From: Scytonema sp. UIC 10036
GTDB taxonomy: Bacteria; Cyanobacteriota; Cyanobacteriia; Cyanobacteriales; Nostocaceae
Length of the DNA: 32,642 nucleotides
Assembly (NCBI RefSeq): GCF_009725235.1
Contig: NZ_WJFC01000150.1
Span: 1-32,642 of the forward strand
Reading direction: 5' to 3'
Part shown: positions 10,184 through 31,640 of the stretch, piece by piece
How positions within the stretch are numbered: position 1 is the stretch's first letter
How the letters are laid out: every line of letters begins with the position of its first letter
Program-made: the position numbers and the translations under genes
Notes under the pieces: model-generated
The model's database searches: none
Seen by the model: the letters and a program-made list of their open reading frames with translations, nothing else
Told to the model about the DNA's origin: nothing

Positions 10184-10495
10184 TCTAAATCTAACACCAC
10201 AGCAATTCCATCCTCAACTTGTACCCCAATATACAACTATTTATCGGTCAAACATGGAAAGTAACCCCCTCAACCTAACTTAATACTTCCTATAGGACTC
10301 CTATTTGATTTTTGAAATACACGTAGGTAGGGCTAAAGCCCACCACGTAAGCTTTTGGTGGGCTTTAGCCCTACCTACAAGTACTTAGATTTTTTCACAA
10401 ATCAGATAAGATTGCTATATACATTGCATTAACGATAAATCTATGACTTATGCTTTGAGTCTTTGTTCAGATCTCGAAGGTAGTCCTAACTACTC
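9654..10495. repeat. Segmental duplication, copy 2 (pairs with 7648-8376)
   Basis: Carries cyclo-ligase copy 2, its upstream region and the porin 3' end, matching copy 1 apart from scattered substitutions and the MITE at 10293-10417. Beyond about 10488 this copy continues into about 280 bp more of the porin gene, whereas copy 1 diverges, so copy 2 preserves more of the ancestral neighbourhood. Confidence 0.9.
10293..10417. mobile_element. 125-bp MITE flanked by TA duplication
   Basis: The empty site in duplicate copy 1 reads CTTCCTATACATTG (about 8281-8294). Here the same site is split, with TA at 10291-10292 and again at 10418-10419. Terminal inverted repeats start TAGGACTCCTATTTGATTTT and, from the other end, TAGCAATCTTATCTGATTTG. 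The middle is a near-perfect hairpin with 23-bp arms (10323-10345 and 10356-10378, core GTAGGTAGGGCTAAAGCCC). TA duplication and short inverted ends suggest mobilisation by an IS630/Tc1-mariner-type transposase; none is encoded in the window. Confidence 0.85.
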
Positions 10496-15874: not shown

Positions 15875-16292
15875 TTGATGGGTCAGACCCCCCTCCTCAA
15901 TCCGCTTGCTTAGCCTGGGAATGCCTTAAGGGAGTTTCCGCCTCCTAAGATCGCTCTGCAGAGCCTCGCAGCCTGCATTCCCAGCCTTTGGCAGGGAACG
16001 AGAGTGGGGGATCTGTCCAATCTGCAAGGGCTCTCGAATTGTAGTAGCGCATCTAGGCTAATTTGTTGGGTAGAAATTAATCGGTAAATTAGTCTATAAT
16101 TCTTTCCCCTGTGCCCTGTGCCCCTGCGCCCCTGCACCCTGCAGCCTCAACTACATTTTAGGTGGATGTTGTAGTAGGTTGGGTTGAGCCTCAGTTGATA
16201 AATGTTGGGTTTCGTTCCTCAACCCAACCTACGTGTTTTCGTATTTTTCGGTTTAACCGACAAGTATTGGGATCTGTCTACCTACCCATCAA
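15875..16292. repeat. Palindromic element interrupted by a MITE
   Basis: The left arm TTGATGGGTCAGACCCCC (15875-15892) is mirrored at the right by GGGGGATCTGTC (16006-16017) continuing, after the inserted MITE, as TACCTACCCATCAA (16279-16292). Internal arms GGGAATGC and GCATTCCC add to the hairpin. The region is an older inverted-repeat element split by the insertion at 16018-16269. No protein coding is seen in 15801-16321. Confidence 0.65.
16018..16269. mobile_element. Hairpin MITE copy A (9-bp target duplication)
   Basis: GGATCTGTC occurs on both sides (16009-16017 and 16270-16278). The left end CAATCTGCAAGGGCTCTCGA matches the CAATACTGCAAGGGCTGAGA end of the other copies; the right end is CAAGTATTG. 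The hallmark arm GTTGGGTTTCGTTCCTCAAC is at about 16204-16223. This copy is longer than the others because it contains an extra about 120-bp piece flanked by TTGTAGTAG repeats (about 16039-16047 and 16169-16177), with CCCTGTGCCC-type tandem repeats inside. Confidence 0.75.
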
Positions 16293-18369: not shown

Positions 18370-18514
18370 CAATACTACGTAGGTTTTGCTAAAAACACAA
18401 ATTCAAGGTAGGTTGGGTTGAGGAACGAAACCCAACATTTATCCGCAGTTGTTGGGTTTCGTTCCTCAACCCAACCTACAATTTCTACAATTTCTCTCAG
18501 CCCTTGCAGTATTG
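18370..18514. mobile_element. Hairpin MITE copy B (10-bp target duplication)
   Basis: ATTTGTCATT flanks both sides (18360-18369 and 18515-18524). Ends are CAATACTACGTAGGTTTTGC and, inverted, CAATACTGCAAGGGCTGAGA. The centre is a long hairpin: GTAGGTTGGGTTGAGGAACG (from 18411), then after ACCCAACATTTATCCGC the complementary arm ending CAACCCAACCTAC (about 18480). 145 bp, no coding capacity. A 9-11 bp duplication suggests an IS4-like transposase in trans. The flank lies in tandem repeats, so this target duplication alone is weaker evidence than those of the other copies. Confidence 0.75.
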
Positions 18515-20084: not shown

Positions 20085-21818
20085 ATGGCAAATTTCTTTT
20101 TTTTACTTTTAAGCGCTGCTGCCAGACAGTCGAAAGCAAATTTTGTAAGAAAAACTCGTCAAATCAATGCAGTGCAAGAGAATTTTTTACGCAACCTGTT
20201 GCAAGCGCATCAAGACACTGAATTAGGTCGGGAATATGGACTTAGAGATATCAAAACTATCGATCGCTTTCGAGAACAGGTTCCCATTCTACCTTATAGC
20301 AGCTATGAACCTTATACTACGCGTATAGGGAAAGGTGAAGCAAACGTTCTCACAGCCGAACCAGTAGCTCACCTCATTCAAAGCAGTGGTTCAACTGGAA
20401 AAAAGAAACTAGTCCCCGTCACTCGGAAAACTAAGAAATCTTTGGAACAGGCTTATTGGACGAGCACTGGCTTTTTATGTGAGGCGCTGTCAACAAGAGG
20501 GCTAGAGTTTGGCAAATTCATGGTAACTAAGTCAGTACAGCTGCAAGGACGTACCACGGGCGGTATTGAGTATGGCACAGCTGGTGAAGTTAACCTTCGC
20601 ATGAGTAAGTTTATTTGCAAGCAGGTATTTGCCAACCCTTATGAAACCTTAGAGGTAGCTGATAGCTTAGCTCGTCATTATCTTTGTTTGTTGTTTGCCT
20701 TGCAAGAAGACTCCATGCGGGGGATGGCAGAAAGCTTTCCCATGCTTATATTGCGGAATTGCAGTTATTTGGAACACTACGCTGAAGAGTTAATCCGAGA
20801 TATAGAGACTGGAGCGATCGCAAGTTGGTTAAAAATCGACCCAGAACTGCGAGTAAAATTAGAGAAGGCGTGGTTTGCAAATCCCAAGCGAGCTGCACAA
20901 TTAAGAGAAATCTGGCGATCGCAAGGAACAATAGTCCCCAAACTCGCTTGGCCTAATTTATCATTTATTATTGCTGCACGTGGAGGAACATCAGACTTTT
21001 ATTTTGAGCGATTTCCTACCTACTTTGGTGATACACCGCAATTTGGCGCGGGTTACTCTACATCAGAAGCCATTTTTGGCATTTACCACGACATTAATGA
21101 CGATAGCAGCATTTTAGCAATTGACACTGGCTTTTTTGAGTTTGTACCAGAAGACCAGTGGGAAGCAGAGCATCCTAAAACCTTACTAGCCAGTGAGGTA
21201 AAAACGGGAGAGCGATATCGCATTTTGGTAACTAATTATAGTGGGTTCTACCGTTACGACATTGGTGACATTGTAGAAGTACTTGGATTTTACGAACAAA
21301 CACCCCTGATTGTCTTCCGCTATCGTCGAGGCGGACTGCTTTCTGCAATCAACGAGAAGACAACCGAATTCCACGTAACCCAAGTGATGCAAGCTTTGCA
21401 ACGAGATTTCAGTATACCCTTAGAAGATTTTTGTATCACCTTATCCGAAAATGATTTCCCATCCCATTATTTAGTTAACATTGAACTTGCCCCCGGTCAT
21501 ACACTCACCAATCCCCAAGCCTTCCTAGCCAGCTTTGACAGCAAACTAAAGGAAATCCATATTTCCTACGAAGTAAATCGCCGGGATCAAGTACCGCCTC
21601 CCCGACTCCGAATTTTAGCCCCAGGTAGCTTTACTACCCTCCGCCAGCGTCAACTGCAAAATGGCATTCCAGAGGGACAACTTAAAATACCACATATTAG
21701 CGAAAACCGTGCTTTTCTTACTGGGTTACCAGTTCAATATGAGGTGAGATTGCCAGAGGATTTGGATAGAACCCAACACTACGGGGATAAAAATTTTGTA
21801 GGTTGGGTTGAACGATAG
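20085..21818 (+). CDS. GH3-family acyl-acid amido synthetase, C-terminus rewritten by a MITE
   Basis: A 577-residue member of the GH3 (auxin-responsive) adenylating family, which activates carboxylic acids with ATP and joins them to amino acids. ATP motifs: 'LIQSSGSTGKKKLVPVT' (phosphate-binding loop), 'GAGYSTSEAIFGI', and 'YSGFYRYDIGDIVEV' (the conserved Asp region). The N-terminal domain begins 'ARQSKANFVRKTRQINAVQE'. Length fits the family. The last 14 residues (QHYGDKNFVGWVER) and the stop come from a MITE inserted after 'EDLDRT'; removing it restores Asn and TAG, i.e. an ending 'EDLDRTN'. The acyl substrate cannot be predicted. Plant GH3s act on jasmonate, auxin and benzoates; bacterial ones are poorly characterised. 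Confidence 0.9.
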   Translation: MANFFFLLLSAAARQSKANFVRKTRQINAVQENFLRNLLQAHQDTELGREYGLRDIKTIDRFREQVPILPYSSYEPYTTRIGKGEANVLTAEPVAHLIQSSGSTGKKKLVPVTRKTKKSLEQAYWTSTGFLCEALSTRGLEFGKFMVTKSVQLQGRTTGGIEYGTAGEVNLRMSKFICKQVFANPYETLEVADSLARHYLCLLFALQEDSMRGMAESFPMLILRNCSYLEHYAEELIRDIETGAIASWLKIDPELRVKLEKAWFANPKRAAQLREIWRSQGTIVPKLAWPNLSFIIAARGGTSDFYFERFPTYFGDTPQFGAGYSTSEAIFGIYHDINDDSSILAIDTGFFEFVPEDQWEAEHPKTLLASEVKTGERYRILVTNYSGFYRYDIGDIVEVLGFYEQTPLIVFRYRRGGLLSAINEKTTEFHVTQVMQALQRDFSIPLEDFCITLSENDFPSHYLVNIELAPGHTLTNPQAFLASFDSKLKEIHISYEVNRRDQVPPPRLRILAPGSFTTLRQRQLQNGIPEGQLKIPHISENRAFLTGLPVQYEVRLPEDLDRTQHYGDKNFVGWVER

Positions 21819-21930
21819 TGAAACCCAACAAATGCCTGTAAATGTTGGGTTTCGTTCCTGAAAAATGTTGGGTTTCGTTCCTCAACCCAACCTACATTTC
21901 GTATTTTTACGCAAAACCTACGCAGTATTC
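21774..21930. mobile_element. Hairpin MITE copy C inserted at the GH3 stop codon
   Basis: Target duplication GGATAGAACC (21764-21773) and GGAAAGAACC (21931-21940), one mismatch. The right end read inverted is GAATACTGCGTAGGTTTTGC, as in copies B and D; the left end CAACACTACGGGG is degenerate. The arms are GTAGGTTGGGTTGAACGATA and ...TTCCTCAACCCAACCTACA, with an extra internal repeat of TGTTGGGTTTCGTTCCT. The insertion supplies the last 14 codons and stop of GH3. Confidence 0.85.
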
Positions 21931-22020
21931 GGAAAGAACCAACTAGACTCAATTATCAAGGGTATATGAGACGTAGATTATTTAACCAGTGACCACTAAC
22001 AACCAACAACCAACAACTAA

Positions 22021-23184
22021 CTAAGTTGAATATTTAGAATTAGTGTCTACATAACCTTCTGATAAGTCACAACCCCAAACAGTTGCAGAAGCTTCACCAA
22101 TGTTAAGGCTTACATGGATATTCACTTTATCCTTCGACATAATTTGTCGCAACTGTACGAGGTTTTCATCATTTGAACTATTAGGATAAACTTGAATATC
22201 ATCAAACCTAATAATAACATTCTCCTGATTTATTTCGCGATCGCTTTCACATTTCCCCATAGCCATAGCCACTCTTCCCCAATTTGGATCTGCTCCATAT
22301 ACCGCAGTTTTTACCAATGGCGAATTCACAATTGCTTTGGCAACTCGTCTAGCTTGTGCATAATTGCTAGCTGAATCTACCGTCACCTCAATGACTTTAG
22401 TAGCCCCTTCTGCATCTCGCGCTACCATTAAGGTCAACTCATGTGCAATTTCATATAATGCACGAGAAAATTCATGTTCCTGAACTTCTCCAGCCAAACC
22501 ATTAGCAAGAATGACAGCAGTATCACTAGTAGAAGTGTCAGTGTCTACACTCAGGGAATTAAAAGTTTTATCTATCGTGGGTCTAAAAATAGAACGCAGT
22601 ACATCTGGAGAAATCGCAGCATCTGTAAAAAAGAAAGCAAGCAGCGTTGCCATATTAGGCTCAATCATACCGACACCTTTGGCAATTCCTACTAGCTTCG
22701 CATTACCTACTTGACGTGTTGCTAACTTCGGTGTATTATCGGTAGTCATAATAGCGCGAGATGCTGAATAAAAATCAGCAAAAGCTAATTTTTTTCCTAT
22801 ACCTGATAAACCTACTCGAATTTTTTCCATTGGGTAACGTCTACCAATGACACCTGTGGAAGCTATCAAAATACTGTTTGTTGAAACTCCAGTTTCAGTA
22901 GAAACAAGTTGTATAATTTCTTCTGCATCCGTTTTGCCAACAACACCATTAGCTACATTTGCATTTTTGGAGATAACAATAATTCCTTGTGCTTTTGAAT
23001 CCTTTAAGTTCTCACGGCTAATTGCCACACTTGGTCCAGCAAAAAGACTTTGAGTAAAGACTCCATCAGCAACACTTTCAACGTCTGATTTAACAAATAA
23101 AAAATCCTCGCTAGTATCTCTGATTCCCAGGTTAGTTACATATGTACTAAATCCTTGAGGTATGGAAGATGCCGTTAATTGCAT
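22021..23184 (-). CDS. ArgJ-family ornithine acetyltransferase, OAT2-like
   Basis: A 387-residue self-processing N-acetyltransferase. Oxyanion pair Thr110-Gly111 in 'LIASTGVIGRRYPME'; autocleavage site Ala179/Thr180 in 'GIAKGVGMIEPNMATLLAF' (Thr180 becomes the N-terminal nucleophile of the beta chain); 'SLSVDTDTSTSDTAVILANG'; and 'NSPLVKTAVYGADPNWGRVA'. Housekeeping ArgJ usually has D-G-D-T-S-T-N-D-T in the third motif. The D-T-D-T-S-T-S-D-T here, together with 'QSLFAGPSVAISREN' and the closing 'CDLSEGYV', resemble OAT2 of Streptomyces clavulanic-acid clusters as I remember it. It moves acetyl between N-acetylornithine and glutamate, or acts on a related amine. No other arg genes are nearby, which supports a non-housekeeping role (inference). 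Confidence 0.88.
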   Translation of the reverse strand: MQLTASSIPQGFSTYVTNLGIRDTSEDFLFVKSDVESVADGVFTQSLFAGPSVAISRENLKDSKAQGIIVISKNANVANGVVGKTDAEEIIQLVSTETGVSTNSILIASTGVIGRRYPMEKIRVGLSGIGKKLAFADFYSASRAIMTTDNTPKLATRQVGNAKLVGIAKGVGMIEPNMATLLAFFFTDAAISPDVLRSIFRPTIDKTFNSLSVDTDTSTSDTAVILANGLAGEVQEHEFSRALYEIAHELTLMVARDAEGATKVIEVTVDSASNYAQARRVAKAIVNSPLVKTAVYGADPNWGRVAMAMGKCESDREINQENVIIRFDDIQVYPNSSNDENLVQLRQIMSKDKVNIHVSLNIGEASATVWGCDLSEGYVDTNSKYST

Positions 23185-31275: not shown

Positions 31276-31640
31276 TTTGGATTTTAGATTTTGGATTTTG
31301 GATTGGGAACGCTTTACATGGACAAAATTTCACACTACTATCTGTCACATTCTTTTTTTCAACTTGATATAATTACGAGGTTAATAGAGAAGACGAGGGA
31401 GACAATACTGCGTAGGTTTTGCATAAAAACACGCAATTACGTAGGTTGGGTTGAGGAACGAAACCCAACATTTATCGGCATTTGTTGGGTTTCGCTGTCG
31501 CTCAAGCCAACCTACAATTTCTCTCAGCCCTTGCAGTATTGGACGAGGGAGACAATACTAAATTTAGTTTTTATCCCCTTTATTTCATAGTCCGCGCAGG
31601 TAGACTTCGTTTGAATAGCCACGATTTCCAGTCGTTAAGG
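31276..31640. other. trpC-trpA intergenic region, mostly MITE
   Basis: No gene. It contains MITE copy D with its target duplication (31392-31552). The apparent frame with 'VGWVEERNPTFIG' is a translation of the MITE and is not a gene. Confidence 0.7.
31403..31541. mobile_element. Hairpin MITE copy D (11-bp target duplication)
   Basis: GACGAGGGAGA occurs at 31392-31402 and again at 31542-31552. Ends CAATACTGCGTAGGTTTTGC and, inverted, CAATACTGCAAGGGCTGAGA; central arms GTAGGTTGGGTTGAGGAACG and ...GCCAACCTAC. 139 bp, no coding. Lies within the trp operon, transcribed from the right. Confidence 0.87.

Follow-up and report, generated by a model that had tools for sequence, protein, structure and literature searches.

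The window (the whole stretch of DNA analysed here, 32,642 nucleotides of a contig from Scytonema sp. UIC 10036) carries a GH3-family protein gene on the plus strand (positions 20085 to 21818) that converges with argJ on the minus strand (22021 to 23184). The last 14 codons and the stop of the GH3 reading frame, called as an ORF of 577 amino acids, derive from a short repeat element, which leaves argJ unaltered. Pfam recognizes in this protein the complete N-terminal, central and C-terminal GH3 domains (PF03321, PF23571 and PF23572), and structure matches identify them as those found in plant auxin/jasmonate amido synthetases, JAR1 among them. An earlier note on this DNA had called the gene GH3, and the name holds for the plant-type acyl-acid amido synthetase fold (PF03321), not for glycoside hydrolase family 3. 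The only NCBIfam model matched by the protein, OlsH, scores 86.3 bits against a cut-off of 620, and because this is so far below the cut-off we dropped this identity and do not file the protein as OlsH.

Purifying selection acts on the body of the gene. Its dN/dS (NG86) is approximately 0.12 against the orthologue L013 of genome G194 (0.045/0.387; first 560 codons) and 0.11 against L012 of genome G195 (0.043/0.405; first 556 codons), values that cover mostly the time before the insertion described below. The element-coded tail, on the other hand, is predicted to be disordered and to lie outside the GH3 fold: residues 563-577 have a pLDDT below 50 in a model whose mean is 75.8, and in ten solved GH3-type sequences the match to the profile stops at position 537-546 of 561.

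Anatomy of the insertion

The element occupies positions 21774 to 21930 on the plus strand and is 157 bp long, with decayed CAATACT-type ends that were delimited from the sequence and by comparison with its family. It lies between a left 10-bp target-site duplication, GGATAGAACC (21764 to 21773), and a right one, GGAAAGAACC (21931 to 21940), both read from the sequence and from other family copies. The earlier note had reported these flanking repeats and they are present, although imperfect, with 9 of 10 positions identical; its element boundaries coincide exactly with those of the family copies. With both the boundaries and the 10-bp length taken from those copies, and equal base frequencies assumed, an identity of at least 9/10 would arise by chance with a probability of about 3e-5. 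Both outer ends of this copy have decayed by one change each (CAACACTAC and ...GCAGTATTC). A repeat search located a perfect 15-bp inner inverted repeat (left arm 21797 to 21811, right arm 21882 to 21896) and two tandem copies of a 23-bp direct repeat (21840 to 21885), all on the plus strand. The element folds strongly (-50.2 kcal/mol, z -4.28), and none of 200 shuffled sequences was equally stable. It contains no transposase gene, and the GH3 tail is the only frame that runs into it.

As read, the GH3 frame ends in ...EDLDRT followed by QHYGDKNFVGWVER and a stop, and the junction between the two is the start of the element. The element begins in phase with the codons, its first base being a first codon position, and it supplies, as the earlier note had counted, 14 codons plus TAG (21774 to 21818, plus strand); the frame closes at 21818. 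Downstream of the right duplication, AAC TAG (21941 to 21946, plus strand) is the displaced last codon with the former stop, at the codon position of the L013 stop. Deleting the element together with one repeat copy restores the proposed empty site, GAT AGA ACC AAC TAG, which encodes DRTN and a stop, so that one residue and a stop codon have indeed been exchanged for the peptide tail that follows DRT. The claim that the enzyme gained a new C-terminus stands for its altered sequence and does not extend to a functional sense.

A dispersed repeat family and its candidate mobiliser

Three further copies with GTAGGTTGGGTT arms are found in the window, at 16174-16232, 18408-18479 and 31441-31515. 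The second is flanked by a perfect 10-bp duplication (ATTTGTCATT) and the third by an 11-bp one (GACGAGGGAGA), while the flanks of the first gave no resolved duplication. The core motif TGTTGGGTTTCGTTCCTC occurs six times with up to three mismatches against zero expected. BLAST matches to the repeat number at least 45, 60, 15 and 31 in four genomes, with pieces counted as matches, and copies are abundant in G194 and G195, the genomes reached through the GH3 orthologues. In an alignment made by eye and by script, full copies begin with CAATACT, end with AGTATTG and have 10-bp flanking repeats.

We examined 37 copies, 33 fetched and the four in the window. In 15 of them, both ends of the family are present together with a flanking repeat that has up to two mismatches; the other 22 are truncated, decayed or not resolved. 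Over exactly 10 bp, 14 of these 15 differ by at most one mismatch, compared with 2 of 210 combinations in which flanks were swapped between copies; the first of these figures is optimistic because the 15 were picked by a search favouring such repeats. Perfect 10-bp duplications occur in several relatives (for example at L071, L074, L075, L086, L096 and L103). Of 217 genomes from the same family as G001, 88 contain the left-end pattern with up to two mismatches, a terminal pattern that also catches related IS ends; its reversed control gave 0 in every row shown. Terminal inverted repeats, a target-site duplication, a short length with no transposase gene and many dispersed copies were all found, and these are the marks of a MITE. 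Rfam returned no family at the gathering threshold in the window, and a plasmid collection contained pieces of the repeat and no orthologous locus.

Two other repeats were seen in passing. A different palindromic repeat, GTAGGTAGGGCTAAAGCCC, lies at 10323-10378 and 25055 of the window and also beside the IS copy L112 of G195. In the gap between GH3 and argJ of G194, 74 bp beyond the GH3 stop, sits a family member of 364 bp that contains an internal insert (reverse complement of L101); its 10-bp flanks disagree, matching at 5 of 10 positions. Inserts of the same type (ACGCCACGTC...CTCCCCAACC) are also present in further G194 copies (for example L089, L102 and L103).

What could have moved these elements is suggested by G195, where CAATACTGCTCGGTTAAG ends recur in pairs that face inward and lie 2194 bp apart. 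Of the six elements of this kind that were fetched (L108-L113), four have matching 10-bp flanks and two have flanks that do not match. The main protein of L108 is an IS4-family transposase, with the Pfam domains Nterm_IS4 (PF13006) and DDE_Tnp_1 (PF01609) both above cut-off and 167.5 bits against the NCBIfam IS4 model NF033592 (cut-off 115). Unlike the MITE, these elements carry a transposase, and what the two have in common is a near-identical terminal motif and the 10-bp duplication. An IS4-family element with matching ends is, on these grounds, a plausible mobiliser of the family, and from the terminal motif and the duplication length we infer that an IS4-type transposase moved the GH3-site copy. 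L108 has in addition a second ORF (1771-2154, 127 aa) on the strand opposite the transposase, with no Pfam or NCBIfam match.

Other gene ends were searched by scanning the 52 ends of the 36 other copies, in three frames each, for frames entering the element. Three copies (L080, L095 and L096) have at least 55 open codons upstream and are candidate fusions by frame length. L122 was rejected as a fusion: there, a copy truncated at one end (2701-2720) abuts the stop of mfd, the transcription-repair coupling factor, and the protein end is unchanged, with the normal C-terminus VAVV (46 of 120 listed homologues compared). A preference of the family for convergent gaps was likewise dropped, as 32 copies surveyed with crude ORF calls gave no clear excess.

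The gene end in relatives and competing readings

L013 (= P0001) is the closest protein among the listed matches. Its gene and argJ stand in the same convergent order, with no element at the stop, a comparative sign that the element is mobile, and it has 564 aa ending in EDLDSNQ; the reconstructed end of the window protein, EDLDRTN, gives the same length. The comparison with element-free orthologues proposed in the earlier note therefore comes out as expected in position, the nearest relative in the tree ending at codon 564 like the reconstruction, with SNQ in place of RTN. Homology of the two ends rests on codon position and on the aligned coding sequence, since the final residues differ and the likeness past the old stop is weak (81 of 2000 shuffles reach its score). 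In a tree of nine rows, from which L037 and L038 were left out and in which the L012 row begins at an upstream in-frame Met, the window sequence lies beside L013 with a support of 93/93, below the star level of the tool; L012 falls outside this pair, and the three are grouped at 100/100. L012 also has no element. Its gene is deleted at the tail, ending in RLAVTSDQ, and because the deletion lies at the same place, it can show neither an empty site nor a former element. The AVTSDQ of this protein is encoded by a 7-bp tandem repeat (CAGTGAC type); here the same C-terminus has been remodelled a second time, in a different way.

None of the 120 homologues listed, out of 1156 found, carries the tail coded by the element. 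Counted from the last invariant Glu (553), these 120 proteins carry 2 to 21 further residues, 8 in 66 of them and up to 14 in 116, and the 24 of the window protein exceed them all. P0002-P0005, at an identity of approximately 73%, end in tails of 19-21 residues whose sequence is unrelated. The earlier note had named orthologues with a similarly long tail as the observation that would speak against an insertion; such orthologues exist as regards length and not as regards sequence, and since they carry unrelated long tails, tail length alone proves nothing. Judged from these sequences, the GH3 C-terminus varies freely among relatives.

We consider it very likely that the insertion of a MITE at the GH3 stop is real and near-neutral, with ends that match an IS4-family element and a 10-bp target duplication. 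What carries this reading is observed directly: the anatomy of the insertion, the family ends, the 10-bp duplications, the empty orthologous end and the purifying selection. The non-autonomous element would have inserted three bases before the GH3 stop codon and duplicated 10 bp of target. The frame would then have entered it at a codon boundary and stayed open for 14 codons to TAG; because of this entry and the open first frame, the protein would have exchanged its last residue for 14 new ones, a net +13. The element ends and one target copy would have acquired their changes afterwards. Points that weigh against this reading are the mismatch between the target copies, the decayed outer ends, the weak likeness to L013 past the old stop, the difference between RTN and SNQ, the deletion that L012 has at this place and the unlike flanks of two of the six IS copies.

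The four relatives in which 19-21 residues follow the last invariant Glu could also suggest that a long C-terminus was native to the gene before the repeat, the repeat-like sequence and its flanking repeat being coincidental. We give this almost no credence, as the tail is encoded by the left end of a dispersed repeat, which starts exactly with the codon that follows the first target copy; the nearest orthologue stops at 564 aa, and 116 of the 120 listed homologues have tails of at most 14 residues. It is equally hard to believe that the insertion, by overlapping the coding end, damaged a gene that is now decaying: the 577 codons form an uninterrupted frame, both the catalytic and the C-terminal domain are complete, and dN/dS is close to 0.1, although a very recent loss would be compatible with this last value because it mostly reflects the time before insertion.

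A reading that deserves somewhat more attention, though we hold it to be unlikely, is that the element is kept for its hairpin, as a shared 3' end or an mRNA stabiliser of the convergent GH3 and argJ genes, with the tail as a by-product. The element folds strongly, three of the four window copies lie between convergent genes by a crude ORF call, and the sister genome has its separate 364-bp family member, 74 bp past the GH3 stop, in the very same gap. However, positions 21600-22100 contain no intrinsic-terminator pattern and L012 manages without the element. Nor does the position of 32 copies from two other genomes (15 tandem, 7 convergent, 5 divergent, 1 at an edge and 4 within ORFs that are small and unverified) indicate a clear preference when set against element-free gaps (45 tandem, 13 convergent and 13 divergent, from crude ORF calls).

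Returning to the near-neutral insertion, its simplest reading is that the last GH3 residues are dispensable and that it was tolerated for this reason. We infer near-neutrality of the tail from its position outside the fold and from the variability already present at this C-terminus, and the change of the protein end is probably harmless. The tail peptide QHYGDKNFVGWVER probably has no function. That this IS4-type MITE family repeatedly rebuilds gene 3' ends, and that the tail is kept for a role such as localisation or interaction, seems to us very improbable.

Parallels in other bacteria and significance

Several repeats reported elsewhere resemble this case. One of them is nearly identical: in the Erwinia amidase ECA3499, the repeat RU-1 removed the normal stop and added a tail past the conserved domain, with a stop inside the repeat (Delihas 2007, PMC2759123). 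Like the GH3 element, this MITE-like repeat deprives an enzyme of its stop, adds a tail and ends translation within itself; it differs in its repeat family (with TA target duplications), in its 35 extra residues against a net 13, and in host and enzyme, and the same account explains its internal stop by a point mutation within the repeat. QMITE1 and QMITE2 overlap the 3' ends of genes, and QMITE2 supplies 33 C-terminal residues of EnhC (PMC5896051). Here too an in-frame MITE at a 3' end provides the last residues or just the stop, whereas the repeat and the host are unrelated and the EnhC stop is placed just downstream of the element (PMC5896051). In-frame fusions and the Rickettsia palindromic elements are described in a review (PMC10969869); these repeats resemble ours in being palindromic, in their length of about 150 bp and in entering frames in frame, as presented there, yet they often lie within proteins, while the GH3-site family has one end-of-gene case and its other copies look mainly intergenic. 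The same review names cyanobacterial MITEs, Nezha as well as MITEb and MITEe of Anabaena PCC 7120 (PMC10969869), which are likewise short, non-autonomous and found in Nostocales, a likeness by description only. In the open-licence literature on MITEs, cyanobacteria and protein fusions, we found no paper on the GH3-site element. Because RU-1, QMITE2 and the Rickettsia elements had already been described, the GH3 case belongs to a known kind: repeat-derived protein endings exist in other bacteria, and it adds no new kind of mechanism.

The case is a clean one, with an empty orthologous end, of a mobile repeat that gives a gene a new ending and its stop codon by way of a target copy, a codon boundary, a short open frame and a stop. 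It is also a warning that an annotated coding sequence may contain a MITE. Finally, the insertion indicates which part of the GH3 enzyme evolution leaves free.
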